Made by a program: the position numbers and the translations under genes
The notes under the pieces: generated by a model
The model's input: only the letters and a program-made list of their open reading frames with translations
Databases searched by the model: none
What the model was told of the DNA's origin: nothing
In this document: in pieces, positions 19,074 through 32,772 of the stretch
How positions within the stretch are numbered: the first letter of the stretch is position 1
Layout: each line of letters begins with the position of its first letter
NCBI GenBank assembly: GCA_002084955.1
Contig: MZGJ01000003.1
Coordinates: forward strand, 1-44,596
From: a candidate division CPR3 bacterium 4484_211
GTDB lineage: Bacteria > Patescibacteriota > 4484-211
DNA: 44,596 bases
Reading direction: 5' to 3'

Positions 19074-20348
19074 TCACTTTAGGAATCCATCATAATCCCT
19101 CATGACCATCATGGATTCCAGTTGTTTAGCCGTCTCCACAATTACCGAAACTACAATTAAAATCCCCGTACCTCCCAGTCTCATTGTCGCCACCCCGGTA
19201 ACCTTTGGAGTGATCATTGGCAAAACGGCAATCAATCCCAGAAAAACAGCCCCAACTAATGTAATTCTGCCAACCACGCGATTTAAGAAATCCACCGTAG
19301 CTCTGCCCGGACGAATACCGGGAATAAATCCACCCTGTTTTTGGATATTCTCCGCCACCTCCTGGGGATTGAACTGAACAGCGGTATAAAAATAGGTAAA
19401 ACCCACCACCAGCAAAAAATACAGAATCCCGTACACCAGCTGATTGCTTAAAACCTCCACCACAGCTTGAGACAAACTTGATATCCACCCCCAAGAGACA
19501 TTACTCAAGAAACTAGCCGCCATATTTGGCAGTAAAAGCAAAGACATGGCAAAAATTATCGGCATCACCCCCGCCTGATTCAACCGCAGAGGTAAATGAG
19601 TGGCCTGTCCGCCATAAATCTTCCGCCCCCGGACCCTTTGGGCGTATTGGATAGGAACCTCCCTCTGCGCCTCACTGGTTAAAACAATCCCCCCGATAAC
19701 CGACACCACCATCGCCAAAAACAATATCAGATTAAAAAAATCCCTGCCGGTCTGCACCAGCAGAGTCTGGACAAAAGAAACCGACATCCCCGAAAGAATA
19801 CCCGTAAAAATTAAAACAGAAATTCCGTTTCCCACTCCATGTTCATTAACCAATTCCCCCAACCAAATCATAAATACAGCTCCCGTCACCAACGAGATCA
19901 TCATCATGGCCACCCTGCTCCAAGACAGCTCGGCAACAATCCCCTGATTTCTCAGCAAAAAATATATCCCCAACGACTGCACCAGAGCTAAGGGAACGGT
20001 GAGAATCCGTGCATACTGATTAATCTTGCGCTGGCCATCCTTGTCTTCTTTAGCCATCTTCTCTAAAGACGGAAAAACCATCGTCAGCAACTGGAGAACA
20101 ATGGTTGCGTTAATAAAGGGATTTAAACCCAAAGCCACCACCGAGAAATTGCTCAAGGCCCCACCCGAAAACATATTTAGCAATCCCAAAAAAGCATTCC
20201 TGGCAAATAGATCGCGAAAAGCCTTAATATCCACGCCCGGCAGCGGAATATGTGCCAGAAAACGAAAAACGGTAATAACCATCATAGTAAGCAAAAGTTT
20301 GTTACGAAGCTCCTGATTGCGGAAAATTGACCTGAGTGTAGCTATCAT
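19074..20348 (-). CDS. secY: protein translocase subunit SecY
   Basis: 424 residues with ten predicted helices. The start IFRNQELRNKLLLTMMVITVFRFLAHIPLPGVD is typical. Helix 2/plug with GLNPFINATIVLQLL, LVNEHGVGNGISVLIFTGI, QREVPIQYAQRVRGRKIYGGQATHLPLRLNQAGVMPIIFA and the C-terminal IPGIRPGRATVDFLNRVV are all SecY signatures. It is the membrane channel for protein export and insertion. It follows rplO by 14 nt, as usual. Confidence 0.98.
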   Translation of the reverse strand: MIATLRSIFRNQELRNKLLLTMMVITVFRFLAHIPLPGVDIKAFRDLFARNAFLGLLNMFSGGALSNFSVVALGLNPFINATIVLQLLTMVFPSLEKMAKEDKDGQRKINQYARILTVPLALVQSLGIYFLLRNQGIVAELSWSRVAMMMISLVTGAVFMIWLGELVNEHGVGNGISVLIFTGILSGMSVSFVQTLLVQTGRDFFNLILFLAMVVSVIGGIVLTSEAQREVPIQYAQRVRGRKIYGGQATHLPLRLNQAGVMPIIFAMSLLLLPNMAASFLSNVSWGWISSLSQAVVEVLSNQLVYGILYFLLVVGFTYFYTAVQFNPQEVAENIQKQGGFIPGIRPGRATVDFLNRVVGRITLVGAVFLGLIAVLPMITPKVTGVATMRLGGTGILIVVSVIVETAKQLESMMVMRDYDGFLK

Positions 20349-20362
20349 TGAGATTTGTTAAT

Positions 20363-20794
20363 TTAACCAACATTCCCGCCCAACTTTTCAATTTGCTCTC
20401 GCGCTCCCCGGCTTACATAAACTCCTCTTACGGAAAACTTTTTCTCCAGCCTGCCGACCGATAAAATTTTTATCCCAAAAGAGCTTTTGCCCGAAACTAA
20501 TCCTTTTTCCTTTAAAACCTCCGGCGTAATTTTACTTCCTGCCCTAAAAAGATTTAGCTTATAAATCGGCAAGGTTTCCGGTCTTCTCTGCCGGCCTTTA
20601 AATCCACGTCCGCGAACAAAAGGAAGACGCTTGGTAAGTTTTAGCTGACCTCCCTCAAAACTAATTTTTACTTTAGATCGGGCTTTTTGCCCCTTCATCC
20701 CTCGGCCGGATGTCTTGCCCCGGCCGCTGCCTATCCCTCTGCCAACACGCTTGGCTCGCTTTTTGACAATTTTGGGTAACGAATGTAACTCCAT
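20363..20794 (-). CDS. rplO: 50S ribosomal protein L15
   Basis: 143 residues. The N-terminal glycine/arginine-rich tail (KRVGRGIGSGRGKTSGRGMKGQKARS) threads into 23S rRNA; the globular C-terminal domain (LVSGKSSFGIKILSVGRLEKKFSV) follows. It comes directly after rpsE (2 nt), where most bacteria would have rpmD (L30) between them. Confidence 0.97.
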   Translation of the reverse strand: MELHSLPKIVKKRAKRVGRGIGSGRGKTSGRGMKGQKARSKVKISFEGGQLKLTKRLPFVRGRGFKGRQRRPETLPIYKLNLFRAGSKITPEVLKEKGLVSGKSSFGIKILSVGRLEKKFSVRGVYVSRGAREQIEKLGGNVG

Positions 20795-20796
20795 AT

Positions 20797-21300
20797 CTAT
20801 TGGCTTATTCTTTCATGAGGCTCTTTTATCATTTTTAGAGCCTTAATAGTAGCGTCAAGGGTGCTCTTTTTATTTCTCGTTCCCAAATTTTTCCCCACGA
20901 TATTCTTTATGCCCGCAACCTCAGCCAAGGCCCGCATAGCCCCGCCAATAATTAAACCCGTGCCTTCGGGTGCAGGCTTTAGCAGTACATGCGCCGCTCG
21001 CTGTTTTAGTTCTATCCGATGGGGAATAGTTCGAGCTTCTCCCACCAGCGGCACCGAAATCATTTTCTTTTTTGCCTTCCTCATAGCTTTCTTAATTGCC
21101 GAAAGAACATCTCGGGCACGGCTGTATGACAACCCTACACTTCCCTCCCCATCACCAACCACCGCCAGACAACTAAACCCCAAGCGGTTCCCTCCCTTTG
21201 TTTTCTGGGAAACTCGTTTTATCTCCACTACCTTTTGAAGCAACTTGGGCTCTTCGGCATTATTATCTTCTGTTTTTGCCACTCGTTGTTTTTTAACCAT
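20797..21300 (-). CDS. rpsE: 30S ribosomal protein S5
   Basis: 167 residues. The double-stranded-RNA-like N domain has VVEIKRVSQKTKGGNRLGFSCLAVVGDGEGSVG and the C domain has VPLVGEARTIPHRIELKQRAAHVLLKPAPEGTGLIIGGAMRALAE. S5 guards mRNA entry and accuracy. It starts 1 nt into the rplR stop, so it is translationally coupled. Confidence 0.97.
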   Translation of the reverse strand: MVKKQRVAKTEDNNAEEPKLLQKVVEIKRVSQKTKGGNRLGFSCLAVVGDGEGSVGLSYSRARDVLSAIKKAMRKAKKKMISVPLVGEARTIPHRIELKQRAAHVLLKPAPEGTGLIIGGAMRALAEVAGIKNIVGKNLGTRNKKSTLDATIKALKMIKEPHERISQ

Positions 21301-21659
21301 CAGAAAATTAATCCTCCTTTCCTGGCGCCCTCGGCCAATGCCCTAATCCTCCCATGAAAGCGGTAGGCTCCGCGGTCAAAAACAATTTTTTCTATCCCCG
21401 CTTCCGACGCCTTTCCCGCCAATAATTCCCCAACCAAAAAAGCCGTCTCCGTTTTCGTTCGCTTAACTTTTCCCTCGCGGAGCTGCTGATCACAGGCAGA
21501 AACCAAGGTAACACAAGACTCGTCATCAATAAGCTGGGCATAAATGTGCTTGTGGGAACGGAATACCGAAAGACGCGGACGCTCTTTTGTTCCCTGTATT
21601 TTAGAACGCACCCGGCGCTGTCTTTTTTGGCGTTGTTTTGTTCTGTCCTTGGTTTTCAT
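21300..21659 (-). CDS. rplR: 50S ribosomal protein L18
   Basis: 119 residues with the basic start [39 protein letters not shown] and the C-terminal [32 protein letters not shown]18 binds 5S rRNA and places it in the central protuberance. It overlaps the rplF stop by 4 nt (ATGA). Confidence 0.97.
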
Positions 21660-22219
21660 GCTTTACCAGCCGCCCCGGCTCCCACCGCCTTGGCCGCCTT
21701 CCCGGCTTTTCTCTTTATTACTTCACCAACATATCTTATTCCAGTTCCCTTATAAGGCTCAGGAGGACGGACAGCGCGAATGCTTGCCGCCGTCTGATGA
21801 ACTAGATGTTTGTCAATTCCCTCCAGCCTAATCTTAGACTTTTCCACCGAAACATTAACCCCGCGAGGAATAGTACATTCCACCGGGTGGGAAAACCCCA
21901 CCTGGAGTATTAATCTATCTCCCTTCACCTCAGCACGGTAACCCAAACCAACCAACTCCAATTCCTTCACATAACCCTCCTTAAGTCCTATGACAGCATT
22001 CTGCAGAATTGACCTCCAAGTTCCATGTAGCGCGCGAGTCTGCTTGTCATTACGCCTCCTCTCCACCTTAATCTCCGATTCCCCCACCAATACCTTGATA
22101 CCATCGGGCAGTAAATAACTAAGCTCACCCTTAGGACCCCTAACCGAGACCCGCCGACCCTCAACTGCCACCTGAATTCCTTCATCAATTGAGATAGGTT
22201 TTTTACCAATTCTAGACAT
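21656..22219 (-). CDS. rplF: 50S ribosomal protein L6
   Basis: About 187 residues from Met8 of the tracked ORF (22219), which gives the canonical MSRIGKKPI start. Two L6 domains; the second ends with [33 protein letters not shown]6 lies near the sarcin-ricin loop and factor-binding site. It is 14 nt from the rpsH stop. Confidence 0.96.
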
Positions 22220-22233
22220 ACGGACAAATTGCC

Positions 22234-22626
22234 TTACCACACTTCAGCCAAAAGCTCTCCTCCCAATCCCTTCCTTCTGGCTTCTTCTCCGGTCATTACC
22301 CCTTTAGGCGTGGAAATTAGACAAATCCCATACCCTTCTCTAACATAAGGAATTTTCTTCTTGCCGACATACACCCGGCATCCGGGTTTAGAAATCTGCC
22401 TGAGATCGGTAAATTTTTTCTTTTTCTTATCGTAAAGGTGAACTCTTAACACCGGCTTGCCCTGATGCTCCGTCTTTTTTAGATCCTCAATAAATTTAAA
22501 CTGTTTAAGGACCTTAACAATCTCGTATTTAAACGCGGAATAGGGAATCACCACCTCGGATTTAGAGGCCAGATAGCCATTTTTTATTCTAATCAGTGTA
22601 TCCGCCACCGGATCGGTAATCAACAT
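22234..22626 (-). CDS. rpsH: 30S ribosomal protein S8
   Basis: 130 residues: DPVADTLIRIKNGYLASKSEVVIPYSAFKYEIVKVLK and the C-terminal VREGYGICLISTPKGVMTGEEARRKGLGGELLAEVW, the typical S8 ending. S8 binds helix 21 of 16S rRNA and represses the spc operon in E. coli. A hairpin of 22 bp lies just upstream, between rpsN and rpsH. Confidence 0.97.
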   Translation of the reverse strand: MLITDPVADTLIRIKNGYLASKSEVVIPYSAFKYEIVKVLKQFKFIEDLKKTEHQGKPVLRVHLYDKKKKKFTDLRQISKPGCRVYVGKKKIPYVREGYGICLISTPKGVMTGEEARRKGLGGELLAEVW

Positions 22627-22641
22627 ACGACAAATCTAAGG

Positions 22642-22663
22642 CAAAATTGCCGCGGCAATTTTG
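22642..22663. repeat. perfect 22-bp palindrome between rpsN and rpsH
   Basis: CAAAATTGCCG/CGGCAATTTTG is a perfect palindrome in the 77-nt gap and ends about 15 nt before the rpsH start on the transcribed strand. It could act as an RNA processing site, a stability element, or a binding site for a regulatory r-protein such as S8. No T-tract follows. Confidence 0.55.
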
Positions 22664-22703
22664 TCTTTAGCATTACTAAGATCTTTAACAAATAATCAAA
22701 ATT

Positions 22704-22889
22704 TTACCAGCTGCTTTTTTGCACGCCGGGCAATTCTCCATCCAAAGCCAATAACCTAAAGCAAATTCGGCATAGCTTAAACTTTCTCATATAAGACCCA
22801 GACCGACCGCATACCTGACACCGATTATACTTGCGGGTTTTATACTTTGGCTTCCTTTGTGCCTTAACGACTAACGACTTTTTCGCCAT
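22704..22889 (-). CDS. rpsN: 30S ribosomal protein S14 type Z
   Basis: 61 residues with [22 protein letters not shown], a C-x2-C-x12-C-x2-C zinc knuckle, so this is the short zinc form. It ends [11 protein letters not shown], typical of the family. It lies between rplE and rpsH, the usual place. Confidence 0.97.
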
Positions 22890-22945
22890 TTAAGTTCAAT
22901 ATACAGCCTGCAGACTCTTCTGCGAAATCTGCGCGCCGTGCATCA

Positions 22946-23494
22946 TCATTTGCCTGCTGACTTCAATGGACAACCCAACGCTCTTAACAATTTTTCCGCC
23001 TCCTGATTATTCTTGGCCGTGGTCACAATGGTTATCTGCAATCCACGCAGGCCGCTTACTTTATTGGGATCAACCTCAGGAAAAGCCACCTGTTCCTCTA
23101 AACCCAGCGAATAGTTGCCGCTGCCATCAAATCCCTTCATGTCTAGGCCATTAAAATCTCTCGTTCTCGGTAAAACAATATTAAAGAGTTTGTCAACAAA
23201 CTCGTACATCCGCTCTCTACGCAAAGTAACTCGGCAACCAATAGGCATTCCCTTCCTTAAGCTAAATCCAGAAATAGCCTTCTTAGCCTTGGTGACCGCC
23301 GGCCATTGACCGCTAATCAATTTAAGGTCTTCCATGGCCTGATCCAAACTCTTTTTGTCTTTAACGGCGCGGCCAACTCCCATATTCAAAACCACCTTTT
23401 TTAGCCTGGGCACCTGAAAAGGATTCGAATAGCCCAAGTCTTTTTGCAAAGACGGAAGTATTTTTTTTTGATACAAGTCTTTAAGACGCGACAT
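22946..23494 (-). CDS. rplE: 50S ribosomal protein L5
   Basis: 182 residues with NPFQVPRLKKVVLNMGVGRAVKD, GQWPAVTKAKKAISGFSLRKGMPIGCRVTLR, LPRTRDFNGLDMKGFDGSGNYSLGLEEQ and VTTAKNNQEAEKLLRALGCPL. L5 binds 5S rRNA and touches P-site tRNA. Standard position after rplX, with a 66-nt gap. Confidence 0.98.
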   Translation of the reverse strand: MSRLKDLYQKKILPSLQKDLGYSNPFQVPRLKKVVLNMGVGRAVKDKKSLDQAMEDLKLISGQWPAVTKAKKAISGFSLRKGMPIGCRVTLRRERMYEFVDKLFNIVLPRTRDFNGLDMKGFDGSGNYSLGLEEQVAFPEVDPNKVSGLRGLQITIVTTAKNNQEAEKLLRALGCPLKSAGK

Positions 23495-23560
23495 GGCTTA
23501 CTGCAAAACTACAAGAACATTAGTTTTTTATATTTTAACGATCCGATCTCTGTTACTGTA

Positions 23561-23869
23561 TTACTCGATGATTGCTTTGCATTTCTTACACACCCTAAAC
23601 TTTTCTTTTCTTTTTATCCGGTAACCAACTCTGGTCTTCGCCTTACAGCTGGGACAGACAAGCATCACCTTAGAAACATCAAAGGGCTTGGCAATACTAA
23701 TAATCCCACCGGGCTTTTGCTGAGACTTCTGACGCACATGTTTTTTAACTACGTTTACCCCAGAAATCACCACCTTCCGCAAACGGGGGAGGACTCTCTC
23801 CACCACTCCCTGCCTGCCTGCCGCATTACCACTGATAACTTCAACTTTGTCTCCTTTTTTTATTTTCAT
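23561..23869 (-). CDS. rplX: 50S ribosomal protein L24
   Basis: About 102 residues from the ATG at 23869; the tracked TTG start four codons earlier is less likely. KOW domain KIKKGDKVEVISGNAAGRQGVV, then PGGIISIAKPFDVSKVMLVCPSCKAKTRVGY. The C-terminal CPSC...CKKC pairs form an extra zinc ribbon, seen in many but not all L24 proteins. It is an early 50S assembly protein. Confidence 0.96.
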   Translation of the reverse strand: MKIKKGDKVEVISGNAAGRQGVVERVLPRLRKVVISGVNVVKKHVRQKSQQKPGGIISIAKPFDVSKVMLVCPSCKAKTRVGYRIKRKEKFRVCKKCKAIIE

Positions 23870-23939
23870 TTTCTCAGGCAATAAGCTCTAGGTTATAGTT
23901 TTCCAGCAAGGCGCCTCATCATCCAGCTCCTAATCTGCA

Positions 23940-24308
23940 TCACACAATCTCTGGCGCCATAGAGGCAATTTTATCATACCCCAAATCTTTTATTTCACGA
24001 GCCACAGGCCCAAAAATCCGCGTTCCCAACGGATTACCCTTTTTATCAACAATCACCGCCGCATTATCATCAAAGCGAACATACGAACCATCTTTCCGCC
24101 GATACTCCTTTTTAGTCCTGACAATAAGAGCTCGGACTATTTGAGCTTTTTTTACCGATCCTTCCGGACTGCTAAGTTTAACCACCGCCGAGATAGTATC
24201 ACCAATGCGAGCGTATTTCTTTTTACTAAAGCCCGGAATAGACAGACACATAATCTCTCTAGCTCCACTATTATCGGCAACTTTTAAACGACTGTGCGTC
24301 TGAATCAT
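23940..24308 (-). CDS. rplN: 50S ribosomal protein L14
   Basis: 122 residues, standard length: MIQTHSRLKVADNSGAREIMC, RIGDTISAVVKLSSP, KEYRRKDGSYVRFDDNAAVIVDKKGNPLGTRIFGPVARE. L14 forms intersubunit bridges with 16S rRNA and lies between rpsQ and rplX. Confidence 0.98.
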   Translation of the reverse strand: MIQTHSRLKVADNSGAREIMCLSIPGFSKKKYARIGDTISAVVKLSSPEGSVKKAQIVRALIVRTKKEYRRKDGSYVRFDDNAAVIVDKKGNPLGTRIFGPVAREIKDLGYDKIASMAPEIV

Positions 24309-24367
24309 GGTTAATCAGCTATTTGACTTGCAAATAGCGCACTCACACCAAGTGTAGCCCACAACCT

Positions 24368-24604
24368 CTAAGCATCCAGCTTTTTTATAATTTTCCATCT
24401 CTTTAACTTCGATCTTGGTCTGCTCTCTTCAATAATCACCTCATCCCCTTCCCGAACCCCCAAGCCATCATGAGCATAATACTTTTTCCTCTTTTGAACA
24501 TACTTTTGGTAACGAGGATGCTTAAATTTTCTTACCACCTGAACCACGGCACTCTTTTCCATTTTATTGGAAACAACCGTCCCCTTTAATTTTTTAGCCG
24601 GCAT
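24368..24604 (-). CDS. rpsQ: 30S ribosomal protein S17
   Basis: About 78 residues from the ATG at 24604, which follows an AAAGGAGG site; the tracked start lies inside rpmC. KLKGTVVSNKMEKSAVVQVVRKFKHPRYQKYV and EGDEVIIEESRPRSKLKRWKI show the S17 OB fold. The gene overlaps the end of rpmC by 11 nt. Confidence 0.96.
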   Translation of the reverse strand: MPAKKLKGTVVSNKMEKSAVVQVVRKFKHPRYQKYVQKRKKYYAHDGLGVREGDEVIIEESRPRSKLKRWKIIKKLDA

Positions 24605-24815
24605 ATTTTTCCTCCTTTCGTTTCGTATTAAGTACGGTAAGCAAACGGGCAATTTTCTTTTTAAGCTTTTTGATCTGCGAATAATCCTTAAGCTTGTTAA
24701 GACTGTGATCTAGGTTTAACTTGGCCAAATTAAGCCTTAACTCCTGCAACTGCTGGTTTAGGCTGTTGATATCCTTGCTTCTTATTTCTTTTAACCACTG
24801 ACTTGTCTTTTTCAT
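24594..24815 (-). CDS. rpmC: 50S ribosomal protein L29
   Basis: 73 residues, two-helix coiled coil: EIRSKDINSLNQQLQELRLNLAKLNLDHSLNKLKDYSQIKKLKKKIARLLTVL. L29 sits at the polypeptide exit site. It overlaps rplP by 4 nt (ATGA) and rpsQ by 11 nt, so all three are coupled. Confidence 0.95.
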   Translation of the reverse strand: MKKTSQWLKEIRSKDINSLNQQLQELRLNLAKLNLDHSLNKLKDYSQIKKLKKKIARLLTVLNTKRKEEKYAG

Positions 24816-25234
24816 TTAGACAAAGAATTTTGCCTGCTAACAATCAATGTCTTCACAGGCAGCTTGTGCTTGGCCAATCTAAAAGCTTCCCGCGCTACCT
24901 TCTCTTCAATACCTGCCAATTCAAATAACAGCATTCCCGGTTTAACCACCACCGCATAGTGGCTAAAAGGACCTTTTCCGGCGCCCATGCGCACTTCGGG
25001 CGGTTTTTTGGTAATCGGCTTGGCCGGAAAAACTCTAATCCACAATTTCCCCGACCGTTTAGTATAATTACGAATCGCCCGGCGAGCCGCTTCAATCTGC
25101 GCCGCGCTAACCCATCCCCGCCCCAACGACTTGAGGCCAAATTCTCCAAAAGAAAGCTTGTTTCCGCGGTAAGCCAGCCCTTTCATCCGACCCCTAAATT
25201 GTCTGCGGTATTTAATCTTTTTAGGTTCAAGCAT
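24812..25234 (-). CDS. rplP: 50S ribosomal protein L16
   Basis: 140 residues: [83 protein letters not shown]16 helps place A-site tRNA. It overlaps the rpsC stop by 8 nt, so the two are translationally coupled. Confidence 0.98.
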
Positions 25235-25889
25235 AACTTTCCTCCGGTACCAAGTTGAGCCAAATCTTTACCCCCAGCAGGCCATACTTAGTACGGGCCA
25301 CAAGATGAGCATAATCTATATTCGCCGAAATTGTCTGCAGAGGAACACTGCCCTCACTCCATTTCTGCGTCCGGGCAATTCTCACCCCGCCCAGCCGGCC
25401 GCTTAGGGCCACCTTAATACCCTTAACCATCTTTGATTCCATAGCCTTGGCCACCACCTTGTTTACCGCCCGCTTGTAGGGCACTCTACCTTCTATCTGT
25501 TGGCAAATCTCCTCCGCCAGCAAGCGGGCCGAAAGCTGCGATCTTTTGATTTGCTCCACATTGAGCTTAAGTTTCACCTCACCCACATACTTTCTAATCT
25601 CATTTTTTAAAGCCTCTATCCGTTCACCGCCCTTTCCAATAATTAAACCCGGCTTGGCCACCTGAAGGGTAATTACCACATCTCCAGCCGTCCTTTCAAT
25701 AAGCACCGAGACCACGCCCGCCGCCCGCAACTTTTCCTCAATAAAACGCCGAATTTTAAGGTCCTGCAACAGAAGATCGGCATAGTCGTCTTTGCTGTAC
25801 CACCGCGATTTCCAATCTTTATTTACCTGTAATCTAAACCCTAAAGCATTAGTTTTTTGCCCCAAGATAAAAATTTGTTCATTTAGCAT
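25227..25889 (-). CDS. rpsC: 30S ribosomal protein S3
   Basis: 220 residues. About eight residues precede the usual GQKTNALGFRL start. The KH domain carries GLIIGKGGERIEALK, and the C-terminal domain ends VPLQTISANIDYAHLVARTKYGLLGVKIWL. S3 lines the mRNA entry tunnel. The order rplV-rpsC-rplP is standard. Confidence 0.97.
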   Translation of the reverse strand: MLNEQIFILGQKTNALGFRLQVNKDWKSRWYSKDDYADLLLQDLKIRRFIEEKLRAAGVVSVLIERTAGDVVITLQVAKPGLIIGKGGERIEALKNEIRKYVGEVKLKLNVEQIKRSQLSARLLAEEICQQIEGRVPYKRAVNKVVAKAMESKMVKGIKVALSGRLGGVRIARTQKWSEGSVPLQTISANIDYAHLVARTKYGLLGVKIWLNLVPEESYA

Positions 25890-25965
25890 CCCGTTCCTGC
25901 AAACGATCGGCTATTTTCCTACAAGCCGCCGAAAACACTAAATGACAAAATAATAAACGGTTAAA

Positions 25966-26340
25966 TTATTTACGCTCTGCGGGTTTCTTTTCCTTTCCTT
26001 TTATTTCCTTCTCTCCTTCCAGAACCACTCTAATATGGCAATTTCTTTTCCGAATAACATCAGCGCGTCCGCGAGCACGGAACCTTACCCGTCTTACCGT
26101 TGGCGCCGGACTAACCTGTATTTCTTTTATTTTTAAACTCTCCCGTTTTAGCCCGAAATTATTCTCGGCATTGGCCACCGCAGAGTGTAAAACTTTCCGC
26201 ACCGGTACTGCGGCCTTTCTTACAGAAAGAGCCAGTTTATCCAGCGCCTCTTCCACGCCCAGATGTCTAACCACATCCGCCACCACTCGAACCTTCCTAG
26301 GTGATTGCCGAATGTGTTTAGCGCAAGATATAACCTCCAT
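25966..26340 (-). CDS. rplV: 50S ribosomal protein L22
   Basis: 124 residues: AKHIRQSPRKVRVVADVVRHLGVEEALDKLALSVRKAAVPVRKVLHSAVANAENN, and the exit-tunnel hairpin VSPAPTVRRVRFRARGRADVIRKRNCHIRVVLE. A lysine/glutamate tail follows. It starts 7 nt after rpsS; a 76-nt gap precedes rpsC. Confidence 0.97.
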   Translation of the reverse strand: MEVISCAKHIRQSPRKVRVVADVVRHLGVEEALDKLALSVRKAAVPVRKVLHSAVANAENNFGLKRESLKIKEIQVSPAPTVRRVRFRARGRADVIRKRNCHIRVVLEGEKEIKGKEKKPAERK

Positions 26341-26347
26341 GATAAAG

Positions 26348-26638
26348 TCAGCCTTCTTTTTCCACTGGTTTTACATAACCCTTCTTACTATGGGAGATGA
26401 ACTTCCGCGTCGGGGCAAACTCACCCAATTTATGGCCAACCATCGCCTCGGTCACCAAAATCTCCTGAAAGCTACGTCCATTATGGACAGCAAACCGATA
26501 ACCAACCATTTCTGGAGAAATATCCGAATCACGCGACCAGGTCCTAATAAGATCGCGGCGCCCTTCTTTCTCCATTTTCTTTATTTTCTTGACTAATTTG
26601 GGATCCACATACGGACCCTTTTTGCTTGATCGCGACAT
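26348..26638 (-). CDS. rpsS: 30S ribosomal protein S19
   Basis: 96 residues: [69 protein letters not shown]19 forms part of the 30S head with S13. It starts 2 nt after rplB. Confidence 0.98.
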
Positions 26639-26640
26639 AA

Positions 26641-27462
26641 CTATTTCCTTTTTTTAACAATCAGTCTATTGCTTTTCTTTTTTCTCTTTCTTGTTTTACC
26701 ATAGGCCGGTTTGCCGTAGACCGTGCGCGGATTGCGTCCGGTGCCTGTTCTTCCTTCACCACCCCCATGGGGATGCTCTCCTGCCGGCATCGCCACCCCA
26801 CGAACAGAGGGTCTAATACCCATATGACGGCTGCGGCCTGCCTTACCCAGCTTAACCAGTTTATAATCGGGGTTACTTACCTGACCAATGGTAGCAGAAC
26901 AACTGCTTAAAAACAAACGCCTTTCACCAGAAGGCAGTTTAAGCAGCGAGTACTTGCCTTCATGAGACATAATCACCGCAGACTCTCCGGCAGAACGCAC
27001 TATCTGTCCGCCCTTTCCGGGCTGCAACTCAATATTGTAAACCACAGTTCCCTGCGGCATTTTCCCCAAGGGCATAGCGTTCCCCACCCGAACAGGCGCT
27101 TTTTCTCCGTACATAACCTCATCTCCTTTTTTAAGACCATCCGGAGCCAGCATATAGCGCTTATCTCCATCAGCATAATGCAGGCGCGCAATAAAGGCCG
27201 ATCGATTAGGATCATACTCCAACGCCGCCACGCGAGCCGCTACCCCCTCCTTGTCACGGCGGACAAAATCAATCTCACGGTATAAGCGCTTGTGGCCGCC
27301 GCCTTTATGCCGGACGGTTATTTTGCCCTTGCTCCTGCCCGCCTTTCTTTTTAAACGCCTCGTTTTGGACTTTAGAGGCTTAACATTGTCCAGATGGCTG
27401 TAGTCAACCACCTTTTTAAATCTCATCCCCGGCGATGTGGGTTTATATGTTTTAATCGGCAT
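26641..27462 (-). CDS. rplB: 50S ribosomal protein L2
   Basis: 273 residues, standard length. [62 protein letters not shown], the SH3-like middle, and the C-terminal [32 protein letters not shown] with the conserved histidines near the peptidyl-transferase centre. It starts 2 nt after rplW. Confidence 0.98.
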
Positions 27463-27464
27463 GG

Positions 27465-27764
27465 CTATCCTTTAGATTCTACCTCAAAAACATCTATCTT
27501 TTGCTTGGGATTTATAGTTACCACCGCAAAACGCTTGGATGGACTCATCTTTTTCAATCTGAGCTTGCCCACCCGCCGGCTGTGTCCGCGCCGATTAATT
27601 ACCCTAACCCGATACACTTCCACATTAAACAACTGCTCTACCGCCGCCGCGATATCTCTTTTAGTTGCCTTTTTGTCTACCTCAAAAGTATATTGGTTAA
27701 GCGCTACCCGAGAGGTTGACTTTTCCGTTACCACCGGCCGCTTAATAATTTGATTAATTTGCAT
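27465..27764 (-). CDS. rplW: 50S ribosomal protein L23
   Basis: 99 residues: IIKRPVVTEKSTSRVALNQYTFEVDKKATKRDIAAAVEQLFNVEVYRVRVINRRGHSRRVGKLRLKKMSPSKRFAVVTI. L23 sits at the exit tunnel and docks trigger factor and SRP. A 148-nt non-coding gap separates it from rplD, unusual for a pair that usually touches. Confidence 0.97.
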   Translation of the reverse strand: MQINQIIKRPVVTEKSTSRVALNQYTFEVDKKATKRDIAAAVEQLFNVEVYRVRVINRRGHSRRVGKLRLKKMSPSKRFAVVTINPKQKIDVFEVESKG

Positions 27765-27829
27765 TATAGTTTAATGTCAGGTAACCAGCTAAAAGTTTGG
27801 CACTTTTTAGATTTAGCGCTAACCTTAGT

Positions 27830-27905
27830 AAATTTCAAGCACCAAATCTTAAATGTCAAATATCAATATCAAAATTCAAAACCATAGCCTAAAACCCAAA
27901 ACCTG
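27830..27905. repeat. low-complexity repeat between rplW and rplD
   Basis: Words such as CAAGCACCAAAT (27836-27847), AATGTCAAATATCAAT and CAAAATTCAAAACC resemble family A repeats (AACCAAGCACCAAAT). It lies inside the L4-L23 gap (27765-27912); no promoter or ORF is evident there. Confidence 0.45.
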
Positions 27906-27912
27906 ATCTAAA

Positions 27913-28548
27913 TTAACCATCCCGCTTGTTTAAAAACACCTTTTCAATCTCATTCAAGGCAGCTTTTAGGACGACCAATTTTTTGCAATTCAAAACATCG
28001 TAGGTATTTAACAACCTAGCCTCCAAAGTACGCGCCTGCGGCAAGTTTTTAAAAGACTTTTCCACAATTTCGTTGGCCTTTGGCAAAACAAAAAGAGCTT
28101 TCTCGCCCTTGCTTAGATTATTAAAAATACCGGCAGCGGTTTTGGTACTAATTTCTTTCAAGTCCATCTTGTCAACGATCACCAACCGATTCTCTTTAAG
28201 CTGCAGGCTTAGCGCTGAAAATAAAGCCAATCGCTTCATCTTCTTGGGAATTTCCAAACTGAAGTCCCGGGGCCGTTTGGGATGAGCGTGTCCGCCGCCG
28301 ACCCAGATTGGCGATCGTCTGGAACCGTGCCGGGCCCGCCCGGTGCCCTTCTGCCGCCAAGGCTTTTTTCCTCCCCCTCTCACTTCTCCTCTAGACTTTG
28401 TCTTTACCGTTCCCAGCCGCTTATTAGCCAGCCGCACCCGAACCGCTTGCGCCATCAAAGCACGGTTTATTTTAGCCTCAAAAATAGAAGGATTCAACTC
28501 CACCTTCCCCTTTTTTTTACCTTTTTGATCAAAAACATCAACTTGCAT
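27913..28548 (-). CDS. rplD: 50S ribosomal protein L4
   Basis: About 211 residues from the ATG at 28548 (MQVDVFDQKGKKKG); the tracked TTG start adds four residues. The exit-tunnel loop GTVKTKSRGEVRGGGKKPWRQKGTGRARHGSRRSPIWVGGGHAHPKRPRDF is present. In E. coli, L4 shuts off its operon by transcription attenuation, which matters here because a terminator-like hairpin precedes rplC. It lies 43 nt after rplC. Confidence 0.96.
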   Translation of the reverse strand: MQVDVFDQKGKKKGKVELNPSIFEAKINRALMAQAVRVRLANKRLGTVKTKSRGEVRGGGKKPWRQKGTGRARHGSRRSPIWVGGGHAHPKRPRDFSLEIPKKMKRLALFSALSLQLKENRLVIVDKMDLKEISTKTAAGIFNNLSKGEKALFVLPKANEIVEKSFKNLPQARTLEARLLNTYDVLNCKKLVVLKAALNEIEKVFLNKRDG

Positions 28549-28591
28549 AAGAAAATTCAAAACAGAACTGTGCCGACAAAATAGTATAACT

Positions 28592-29179
28592 TCACTGTTT
28601 TCTAATCACCACCAGCCCCCCCCTATTCCCCGGCACAGCTCCTTTTACCTTCATCAAATGCTTTTCCACATCAAGCTCCATCACTTCCAGTCCTTTCACC
28701 GTGACTTTTTCTCCACCCATCCGTCCAGCCATGCGCTTACCTTTATAAACCCGGGCGGTCCTTTGATCGCCAATAGACCCCGGGGCGCGATGGCGGTCAC
28801 TTTGCCCATGTGTTTTAGGTCCGCCATGAAATCCCCAGCGCTTCACTACCCCCGCAAAACCTTTTCCTTTAGAAATTCCGCTCACCGTAACCAAATCTCC
28901 CGTTGAAAAAACATCCTCTAACTTTATTACCTCGCCAACTTTTACCTTAGCTCCACCGCCATCACGAACCTCCCGCACATAACGCGGGACAGTTTTGCCC
29001 GCTCTTCCCTTCTTGGCCCCCAAACCCAGCTGGACTGCCCGATACCCATCTTTTTCCCTCGTCTTAACCTGGGTAACCACGCAGGGACCAACAGACAAAA
29101 CGGTAACCGGAACCACCGTCCCGTCTTCTTTAAAAATCTGCGTCATCTCCTTTTTTTGACCCAAAAGACCCGAAAGCAT
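28592..29179 (-). CDS. rplC: 50S ribosomal protein L3
   Basis: 195 residues: LLGQKKEMTQIFKEDGTVVPVTVLSVGPCVVTQVKT and the tryptophan-extension region VSGISKGKGFAGVVKRWGFHGGPKTHGQSDRHRAPGSIG. L3 nucleates 50S assembly. It is the first gene of the block; rpsJ, which usually precedes it, is absent. No Shine-Dalgarno sequence is visible: the ATG follows directly on the T-tract of the hairpin. Confidence 0.97.
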   Translation of the reverse strand: MLSGLLGQKKEMTQIFKEDGTVVPVTVLSVGPCVVTQVKTREKDGYRAVQLGLGAKKGRAGKTVPRYVREVRDGGGAKVKVGEVIKLEDVFSTGDLVTVSGISKGKGFAGVVKRWGFHGGPKTHGQSDRHRAPGSIGDQRTARVYKGKRMAGRMGGEKVTVKGLEVMELDVEKHLMKVKGAVPGNRGGLVVIRKQ

Positions 29180-29180
29180 T

Positions 29181-29211
29181 AAAAAAAATTAAGCGGAGCC
29201 AAGAGCTCCGC
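29181..29211 (-). terminator. terminator-like hairpin directly before rplC (attenuator candidate)
   Basis: On the minus strand GCGGAGC-tcttg-GCTCCGC (29211-29205/29199-29193) is followed by TTAA and eight T (29188-29181), then the rplC ATG at 29179. Stem and U-tract fit an intrinsic terminator. Its position between the operon promoter and the first gene points to attenuation. Confidence 0.7.
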
Positions 29212-29355
29212 CTATTTCTCAACCGCCAAAGGGCAGGACAAGAAAAATCTTATTTCTGCAACTTTGCAACCAACAAAGCGCATTTTCGCTCAGAAAATAA
29301 GCTCCTCGCCAAATTAGTCTTTAAGTTTAACTTGTACATGATCATTTGCATGACC
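29212..29355 (-). promoter_or_regulatory. structured leader of the ribosomal-protein operon
   Basis: The predicted leader runs from about 29355 to the terminator. On the transcribed strand CTTATTTTCTG (29301-29291) can pair with CAGAAATAAG (29258-29249), enclosing two small stems, GCG/CGC (29289-29287/29280-29278) and TTTG/CAAA (29277-29274/29266-29263), i.e. a three-way-junction-like fold. It resembles ribosomal-protein autoregulatory leaders in layout; no known leader motif is recognised. Confidence 0.5.
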
Positions 29356-29361
29356 AGGGGT

Positions 29362-29390
29362 ATTGTAACAAAGCACAACAAGATATGCAA
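29362..29390 (-). promoter_or_regulatory. promoter of the rplC operon
   Basis: Minus strand: TTGCAT (29390-29385), a 17-nt spacer and TACAAT (29367-29362). Start expected near 29355, giving a 5' leader of about 176 nt. Confidence 0.65.
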
Positions 29391-29688: not shown

Positions 29689-30996
29689 GTGCCTGAAAAG
29701 AGATTAATCCCCCGCAACTTAGAAAAGGAACTTACAAAGTGGCTCAAACGGCCAGAAATACTGGCTATTAAAGGCCCGCGCCAATCGGGAAAAACAACTC
29801 TTTTAAAGAAACTCGAAGTAAAACTAAAGCGAGAAGAAAGCAGAGCGGGTGTGGTTTACATTAATCTTGAAGACCGTGATCGACTGGACCAGTTTACCAA
29901 GGACCCAATAAGGTTTATTGAAAGTTTTAGTCCGAGAAAATCAAAACGGACTTTCTTTCTTTTCGACGAATATCATTATGTACCGGAAGCAGGCCAAAGC
30001 CTAAAACTCCTTTACGACTCTTTTACCCCACAGGTCAAATTTATTATCACTGGGTCATCCTCTTTAGAGCTAACGGCGCAAACCGGCCGCTGGCTGGTAG
30101 GCAGGGTTTTCTCTTTTAATCTATTTCCGGTGAGCTTTGGCGAGTACTTAAATTTCAAAAACCTCCGCCTTTATAACATCTGGCAGGAGAAAAATAACGA
30201 ACTAAGAGATTTTATTGAGGGTAAAAGCCAAAAAGTTAGAGAAGAGGAGGTTTTCTCCTCGGAAATACAAGTTCATTATAGTGACTACCTTCGATACGGA
30301 GGTTATCCGGCGGTAGTAACAGCCGAAGATGAGGAAACCAAGCAGCAAATCCTAAAAAACATTGAAGATACCTACTTGAGGCGTGACATTATCGAACTGC
30401 TAAAGGTGGAAAGCGTGGATAAATATCGCAGGCTGACCCAGCTGATTGCCGGGCAGACTGGTCAATTAGCCAATTATCAGCAGCTATCGCAGGATTCGGG
30501 ACTTTATTTTAAGAAGCTTAAACACTATTTATCAATACTGGAGGAGACTTACGTTATTAGCCGCTTAAGGCCCTACTTTAACAATTTGACCACGGAGATT
30601 AAAAAGAACCCCAAGTTGTACTTTCTCGACAGCGGATTAAGGAATTGGCTGGTGCGGAATTTTAATATGATTGACATCCGCATGGACCGAGGCCAACTGG
30701 CCGAAAGTGTGACTAACTCACTTTTGTACTACTCCTATAGCGAAGAATGGCAGCTCAATTTTTGGCGGACAACCAACGGGGCAGAAATTGATTTTATCCT
30801 GTCCAAAGGAATAAAGTCCCCTATCCCTGCTGAAGTAAAATATTCTTCATTCAACAAGCCCCGAGTAAGCCGCTCTTATAGAAACTTCATCCGCGCCTAT
30901 TCCCCAGAAAGAGGCTTGATACTCACCAAAGATTATTGGGACCAGATACAGATTGGCAAAACTAAAGTAGTTTTTGTCCCCGCATGGGTTTTGTAA
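29689..30996 (+). CDS. AAA+ ATPase with DUF4143 domain, paralogue 1
   Basis: 435 residues, GTG start. N-terminal AAA_14-type ATPase: Walker A GPRQSGKTT (29-37), Walker B TFFLFDEYHY, sensor-like FIITGSSSLEL and arginine in WLVGRVFSF. After YGGYPAVV and the YLRRDI segment comes a winged-helix-like region (about 240-300), then a DUF4143 C-terminus with NGAEIDFIL and AEVKYS, the D...ExK pattern of the PD-(D/E)xK fold. Such proteins are common in CPR and archaea with no settled role; the parts suggest an ATP-driven DNA- or protein-remodelling factor with a nuclease-like domain. First of three tandem paralogues, each with its own promoter. Confidence 0.85.
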   Translation: MPEKRLIPRNLEKELTKWLKRPEILAIKGPRQSGKTTLLKKLEVKLKREESRAGVVYINLEDRDRLDQFTKDPIRFIESFSPRKSKRTFFLFDEYHYVPEAGQSLKLLYDSFTPQVKFIITGSSSLELTAQTGRWLVGRVFSFNLFPVSFGEYLNFKNLRLYNIWQEKNNELRDFIEGKSQKVREEEVFSSEIQVHYSDYLRYGGYPAVVTAEDEETKQQILKNIEDTYLRRDIIELLKVESVDKYRRLTQLIAGQTGQLANYQQLSQDSGLYFKKLKHYLSILEETYVISRLRPYFNNLTTEIKKNPKLYFLDSGLRNWLVRNFNMIDIRMDRGQLAESVTNSLLYYSYSEEWQLNFWRTTNGAEIDFILSKGIKSPIPAEVKYSSFNKPRVSRSYRNFIRAYSPERGLILTKDYWDQIQIGKTKVVFVPAWVL

Positions 30997-31512: not shown

Positions 31513-32772
31513 ATGCAATTTCTACAAAGAAAGGTCTATCTTGAGGTTAAAAAGCACATAAAGAGTCCGGAAATATCCCTTATTCTGGGACCACGACAGG
31601 CCGGAAAGACCACGATCATGCTAAAACTTAGTGAAGAGCTGGAAAGTCAGGGCCTGGCAACCGCCTATTTTAATCTCGATGTTTTCGAAGACAAGCAATA
31701 CTTTATTACCCAGCACACTCTTTTAGACCGCTTAGAGAAACTGGTTGGTAAAGGGCCGGCCGTAGTTTTTATTGATGAAATACACCGCCTGGAAAATGCT
31801 GGGCTTTTTTTAAAAGGTCTTTATGATCTAAAACCAAGTTATAAGTTTGTCGCCTCTGGATCCGGATCTCTGGAGTTAAAAGCCAATATTATTGAGCCGA
31901 TGACAGGGAGAAAGCGAATTTTTCTGTGCCTGCCGCTTTCTTTTACGGAGTTTGCCGCTAATAAATTAAAGGTGGATTTTGAGCAAGTGACCCGCGTTTT
32001 AGATACTAATCCTTATGCTTGTCAACGTTTAACGGCTGAATACTTTACTTACGGCGGCTACCCCCGTGTGACGCTGAGCGAGACCCATAAGGAAAAGGTT
32101 GCCACACTGGCCGAAATCTATAAAAGTTATCTGGAAAAAGATATTCAGCTTTTATTAAAAGTGGAAAAGGGGCACGCCTTCGAGACCTTAGTTAAAATCC
32201 TAGCCACTCAGGTGGGCAATTTAATCAATCGCTCGGAATTAGCCTCAACAATCGGAGTAACCCAAAAAACAGTTGAAAAGTACCTGTACCTTCTGGAAAA
32301 AACATTTGTAATTTTTCTCCTTAGGCCCTTTTTTAAAGATGCGCGAAGAGAACTCCGCAAATCGCCAAAAGCCTACTTTGCGGATCTAGGCTTTCTGCGG
32401 CTAGCCCAAGGCACACTGCCAGTTTCCAAGCCGCTCCTTAAGGGGAGTCTTTTTGAAAATGCGTGTTTTTTGAGGCTAAAAGAGCTAAACCTTTTGGAAA
32501 CACCTCGATTTTGGCGTTCTCATTCGGGCGCCGAGGTAGATTTTGTTGTCACCTCCCCCCATACAGGAGAAGTAATCCCTATTGAAGCGAAGGTTTCTCC
32601 GCTTAAGCGACAGACGCTGGGTAAAAGTCTAATTAGCTTTTTGCAGCGGTATCGGCCGCGGCAGGCTTACATTTACACTAAAAAGACCAACCTAAACTTT
32701 AAACGTTTTGGTATTCCAATCCGCTATCTACCCTTTCACTTCCTACCGCCTGCACTCCTTAAAAAGTCCTGA
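31513..32772 (+). CDS. AAA+ ATPase with DUF4143 domain, paralogue 2
   Basis: 419 residues. Walker A GPRQAGKTT (26-34), Walker B AVVFIDEIHRL, KFVASGSGSLEL, and the arginine in MTGRKRIFL. The DUF4143 part starts at YFTYGGYPRVT, then a winged helix (NRSELASTIGVTQKTVEKYLYLLE) that is the clearest of the three copies. The C-terminus has SGAEVDFVV and IPIEAKVS (D...ExK). Same layout as paralogue 1 but clearly divergent in sequence, so the duplication is old or the copies arrived separately. No Shine-Dalgarno sequence; the promoter predicts a leaderless mRNA. Role unknown. Confidence 0.85.
   Translation: MQFLQRKVYLEVKKHIKSPEISLILGPRQAGKTTIMLKLSEELESQGLATAYFNLDVFEDKQYFITQHTLLDRLEKLVGKGPAVVFIDEIHRLENAGLFLKGLYDLKPSYKFVASGSGSLELKANIIEPMTGRKRIFLCLPLSFTEFAANKLKVDFEQVTRVLDTNPYACQRLTAEYFTYGGYPRVTLSETHKEKVATLAEIYKSYLEKDIQLLLKVEKGHAFETLVKILATQVGNLINRSELASTIGVTQKTVEKYLYLLEKTFVIFLLRPFFKDARRELRKSPKAYFADLGFLRLAQGTLPVSKPLLKGSLFENACFLRLKELNLLETPRFWRSHSGAEVDFVVTSPHTGEVIPIEAKVSPLKRQTLGKSLISFLQRYRPRQAYIYTKKTNLNFKRFGIPIRYLPFHFLPPALLKKS

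Follow-up and report, generated by a model that had tools for sequence, protein, structure and literature searches.

A transcription attenuator, conserved among relatives, very probably controls the rplC ribosomal-protein operon of candidate division CPR3 bacterium 4484_211, to judge from its sequence. The best overall explanation of how it works, which we favor as probable, is that the attenuator is coupled to ribosomes translating a short open reading frame (ORF) in its leader. The window, i.e. the whole stretch of DNA that was analyzed, is 44,596 nucleotides long (MZGJ01000003.1, positions 1-44,596) and carries the element on its minus strand, with the following layout:

29689-30996, divergent from rplC: gene with AAA_14 and DUF4143 domains (Pfam), the upstream neighbor of rplC
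29385-29390, minus strand: -35 element TTGCAT, followed by a 17-nt spacer to the -10 element (sequence)
29362-29367, minus strand: -10 element TACAAT (sequence)
29339-29356, minus strand: 5' hairpin UGGUCAU-GCAA-AUGAUCA (fold), with a GNRA-type loop, including the ORF start codon
29250-29351, minus strand: candidate leader ORF, near-leaderless, 33 codons, MQMIMYKLNLKTNLARSLFSERKCALLVAKLQK; ATG 10 nt past the -10 element, stop 35 nt ahead of the terminator hairpin
29299-29306, minus strand: AGGAGCTT segment, a possible antiterminator through pairing, read by eye, to GGAGCTCTT (terminator 5' arm and loop)
29190-29214, minus strand: terminator hairpin, core GCGGAGC/GCTCCGC, 7 G/C-rich core pairs and up to 11 in total, dG -16.7
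29181-29188, minus strand: T8 tract (sequence), followed by an A at 29180 and the rplC ATG at 29179
28592-29179, minus strand: rplC (ribosomal protein L3; Pfam PF00297, Ribosomal_L3), first gene of the operon, with a start that agrees with relatives
19074-28560, minus strand: remaining co-directional operon, i.e. rplD, rplW, rplB and more ribosomal-protein genes up to secY

The genes for L4, L23, L2 and SecY were called with Pfam, and the intervening ORFs were judged to encode ribosomal proteins from their N-termini. The sequence bore out an earlier sequence-only reading that had described the promoter TTGCAT-17-TACAAT, a leader of about 176 nt, a GC hairpin, and a T8 tract 1 nt ahead of the rplC ATG. 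The divergent ATPase gene upstream lies close to a second AAA_14/DUF4143 ATPase gene (31513-32772), the pair sitting beside a divergent promoter region.

The promoter, a consensus match rather than a mapped start, lies upstream of the hairpin on the same strand, and the gene lies downstream. In the window and in many relatives the T-tract runs up to, or almost up to, the ATG, which leaves no room there for a promoter ahead of the gene; every transcript of the operon must therefore pass through the terminator, just as the sequence-only reading had stated for the ribosomal genes. The hairpin ranked first among the terminator-like sites between 20000 and 38000 of the window. Over 293 kb of the 4484_211 genome, 18 of 272 genes had any hairpin plus T-rich stretch within 40 nt of their start, and the rplC hairpin was the strongest among those of the 18 with a T-rich tail of at least six Ts. 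For the window, the attenuator is well supported, and termination at this site would be expected in the cell.

L3 genes, gathered by scanning genome contigs once and by sampling the whole phylum, were placed on an L3 tree, and a hairpin was scored when it had a strength of at least -8 kcal/mol, preceded a stretch of eight letters with five or more Ts and lay within 62 nt of the gene. Such hairpins preceded rplC in 80/89 loci of Microgenomates and sister classes, the window's own order included. Absence from relatives had been named in the sequence-only reading as one outcome that would count against an attenuator. In the same 89 loci they were rare at other genes (rplD, 6/89; rplW, 1/75; rplB, 0/72), and shuffled versions of the sequence upstream of rplC produced them in 32/445 cases (7%), relatives not being independent samples. 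Other CPR and Chloroflexi loci showed a patchy distribution (26/101), a between-group contrast that is descriptive, since the hairpins were already visible on the tree when the 89 loci were delimited; comparison within the group, with rplD, rplW, rplB and shuffles, is the fairer test. A TTGC-type -35 element with a 17-nt spacer was likewise found before rplC in most relatives.

Closer to the window, a family alignment of three genomes, too few for covariation, showed that TGTTACAATAC at the -10 region is kept in both other rplC-bearing members and that one of them (L007) carries a compensating G-C to A-U change in the terminator stem. Neither rplC nor rplD was found in the family genomes G003 and G007.

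The hairpin and its U-tract might instead act in translation of rplC or in processing of its mRNA. The gene has no Shine-Dalgarno sequence and the hairpin occupies the place of a ribosome-binding site, as such a role might require. Against this, a T-tract is present in nearly all relatives at a variable distance from the ATG (∼5-60 nt), as expected of a terminator, and we consider a role other than termination extremely improbable.

Many genomes of Microgenomates and sister classes have rpsJ directly upstream of rplC. The hairpin is kept in loci that lack rpsJ upstream and in those with a divergent upstream gene (e.g., L038 and L053), and hence belongs to rplC; an ordinary rpsJ terminator is thereby ruled out. 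In the 4484_211 genome itself rpsJ, which the sequence-only reading had taken to be missing, is present beside tuf on contig C33. Between tuf and rpsJ of this genome (L089, ∼1400-1465) lies a long inverted repeat, ACAGCTCACAG...CTGTGAGCTG. Sixteen of 45 tuf genes in Microgenomates and sister-class loci had a hairpin and T-tract within 62 nt of their start, which may be a further attenuator or the place where an upstream transcript ends. A separate gap concerns 23S rRNA, for which no match to RF02541 was found in the organism's own genome (G000), rated 99.85% complete; the gene may be absent from the assembly, split or interrupted.

If the hairpin terminates transcription, it need not be regulated. 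A leaky constitutive terminator could set the ratio of short leader RNA to operon mRNA, or insulate the operon from upstream transcription, and with tuf and rpsJ upstream in many relatives it could end their transcript. Its persistence in loci that have no co-directional gene directly upstream speaks against this explanation, and so does the folding behavior of leaders from two related clades, presented below.

The whole window leader folded better than expected (z -2.87), mainly owing to the terminator; minus the terminator, it folded no better than shuffles (z -1.06). The three-stem region proposed in the sequence-only reading is therefore no evidence on its own, its structure not rising above chance. 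GNRA-type loops occur at the position of the 5' hairpin in two family members, and mismatches in the stem of one of them leave this hairpin weakly supported. The motif AGGAGYT..ATTTT around 29299-29306 is partly kept in the family, and we offer as a suggestion only that its AGGAG segment (29306-29299) can pair with GAGCUC of the terminator as an antiterminator. What stood of the sequence-only reading was an attenuator in the rplC leader and a new leader type, a claim supported by strong conservation in Microgenomates and sister classes; the three-stem structure and the loss of rpsJ fell away. Its hint at L4 control as in the E. coli S10 operon gained no support from this analysis, which points to a translated short ORF instead.

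The new element of this analysis is a short leader ORF with its start near the -10 element and its stop before the hairpin. In leaders whose promoters were chosen by their -35 and -10 sequences alone, an ATG or GTG was present 7-16 nt past the -10 element in 94/103, compared with 26.9 expected from shuffles and 13-28 at other offsets. A stop in the ORF frame fell 15-45 nt ahead of the hairpin in 63/89 leaders (71%), compared with 38% and 30% for the other frames and 38% for shuffles, and 2% lacked any stop before the hairpin in the ORF frame vs 20-26% in the comparisons. As the ranges of 7-16 and 15-45 nt were set after inspecting the sequences, and these are related, the counts cannot be taken as blind or as independent. 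The placement of start and stop is conserved across the group, and the window conforms to it (10 nt and 35 nt), the typical gap between stop and hairpin in relatives being ∼30 nt. Its ORF of 33 codons is longer than in most relatives, which counts against ribosome coupling. Promoter-like sequence and terminator, the conservation of both, and the positions of ORF start and stop in relatives are what the sequences themselves show.

Such a start would suit the organism. Within the 293 kb of its own genome (L266-L285 plus the window), 21/41 genes with a recognizable promoter begin 3-16 nt past the -10 element. Near-leaderless mRNAs thus seem common in 4484_211, and the leader ATG lies where the organism often begins translation. 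In the Levybacteria ORF the three codon positions change equally (575/573/501). Conservation thus extends to the reading frame and the stop position but not to the peptide in its entirety, a further point against ribosome coupling. A conserved leader peptide sequence is ruled out as the explanation in Levybacteria by the same comparison.

A switch is predicted in Levybacteria. Here the last codons and stop of the ORF (GGCUACAUAG) would base-pair with terminator sequence from the loop and 3' arm (CUAUGUGGUC). Over 18 aligned leaders, this antiterminator helix was 90% paired with both-side changes in three pairs, compared with 25-41% for slid versions, its covariation score being only moderately above the shuffle control (30/500); the terminator helix was 98% paired. 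Computed terminator pairing was 0.50 in free RNA, fell to 0.30 when a ribosome occupied the start codon and rose to 0.87 when one occupied the stop. For shuffled leaders it was 0.85-0.87 in all ribosome states, and 5000 bootstrap draws of these never matched the real values. In the model the terminator is thus favored once a ribosome has reached the stop, which is the classical logic of ribosome-mediated attenuation.

Woesebacteria leaders gave a free-RNA terminator pairing of 0.58 vs 0.79 in shuffles, with no clear ribosome effect. In both clades terminator pairing was significantly lower than in shuffles, as expected of switches, and an unregulated leaky terminator appears to us quite improbable. 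In Woesebacteria (e.g., L057, L024, L232 and L241), GGAGGUG directly follows the leader start codon; it can pair with CCUC/CCAC just past the stop codon or with a terminator arm, and resembles a ribosome-binding motif.

The window itself gave no sign of a switch, a point that counts against ribosome coupling and favors the leaky terminator. Equilibrium folding of the window RNA gave a terminator pairing of 0.95 in every ribosome state, with no switch seen, and complementarity between its leader and terminator was not above chance (z +0.38; over 83 loci, pairing between leader and terminator arms showed a weak excess, mean z -0.38). For the window's order (six loci) free terminator pairing was 0.65 vs 0.88 in shuffles (p 0.01), a signal owed to the relatives. 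Because its own RNA has no predicted switch, ribosome coupling in the window rests on layout and homology, which tilt our judgment slightly in its favor.

In the mechanism we favor, the promoter at 29390-29362 would start an RNA with a short ORF near its 5' end and an intrinsic terminator directly before rplC, and most transcripts would be expected to end at the T-tract. Read-through, required by all genes of the operon, would occur when the terminator hairpin is kept from forming, the most likely signal being translation of the leader ORF. With ribosomes plentiful, one that runs unhindered to the stop codon would allow the hairpin to form and so turn the operon off; with translation absent or slow, an antiterminator would persist and the operon would be on. 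That the window ORF is translated, and that control runs in this direction, are both inferred.

Ribosome-mediated attenuation is the mode of control of amino-acid operons of the trp/his type. By mechanism, trp-type attenuators are the nearest known systems, and by place the E. coli S10 leader is. With the former the rplC element shares a short leader ORF whose stop shortly precedes the terminator, and in Levybacteria a predicted antiterminator that overlaps the stop codon. Unlike them, it precedes ribosomal-protein genes, its ORF start is nearly leaderless and the ORF lacks a run of any single regulatory codon, which makes general translation the likely signal. With the S10 leader it shares a terminator hairpin immediately ahead of the gene that opens the same ribosomal-protein cluster. 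Unlike the S10 leader, it precedes rplC, with rpsJ on another contig, and has a short ORF at its 5' end; the S10-type arrangement, a leader before rpsJ, is not found here.

This likeness in place raises the possibility of autogenous control, in which L4, L3 or some other operon-encoded protein would bind the leader and stabilize the terminator, with no leader translation. The S10 leader, the target of L4 in E. coli (PMC7186457), stands before the same operon core. Leaders of Daviesbacteria add to the case: these are strongly conserved structured RNAs with compensating changes, of a design of their own. On the other side, no leader family was matched in an Rfam scan of the window and 15 relatives, the window leader outside its terminator is no more structured than chance, and autogenous control would not explain why a start codon and an in-frame stop are conserved. 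We therefore regard protein-mediated autogenous control as unlikely, if the most serious competitor of ribosome coupling.

The Daviesbacteria leader (L083, L077, L107, L076, L180, L015, L028, L036, L137 and L184) lies ∼100 nt before rplC and reads CAGUAGAUCGCGCGUC ... GAUACGGCGA ... UACUGAGUGAG. Those members that were scanned matched nothing in Rfam, and the leader looks like a separate RNA class. In the rpsJ-rplC gap of a Gottesmanbacteria subgroup (L040, L021, L025, L050, L070 and L260-L265), a stem ACUUUGGUAU...AUACCAAAAGU is followed by CUCGGAUGAG and a terminator (by eye); in L025, GUCCC/GGGAC replaces the subgroup stem. The Daviesbacteria leaders and part of those of Gottesmanbacteria look more like ligand-binding RNAs, which counts against ribosome coupling. 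Leader designs thus vary by clade, as the Daviesbacteria design illustrates, while the terminator and its position stay.

We found nothing in the open-access literature on a CPR rplC leader or on control of ribosomal-protein operons by a leader ORF. Eckert and Weinberg (2020; PMC7247131) listed ribosomal-protein leaders, among them an L4 leader that precedes rplC in Archaeoglobi; these are likewise cis-acting leader RNAs before ribosomal-protein operons. Their Table 1 lists 20 new motifs, none from Microgenomates; they are predicted protein binders, and no leader ORF is described.

Ribosome coupling yields concrete predictions for reporter systems. Its broadest form, on which we are evenly divided, is that across Microgenomates and sister CPR classes a near-leaderless ORF gauges general translation capacity, efficient translation to the stop shutting off rplC and the genes downstream. 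Bacteria balance ribosome synthesis mainly via free ribosomal proteins that bind their own mRNA, and to our knowledge ribosome regulation has hardly been studied in this large, uncultured group of reduced genomes. If ribosome coupling holds, feedback here would sense working ribosomes, not free ribosomal proteins, a different solution to the same problem.
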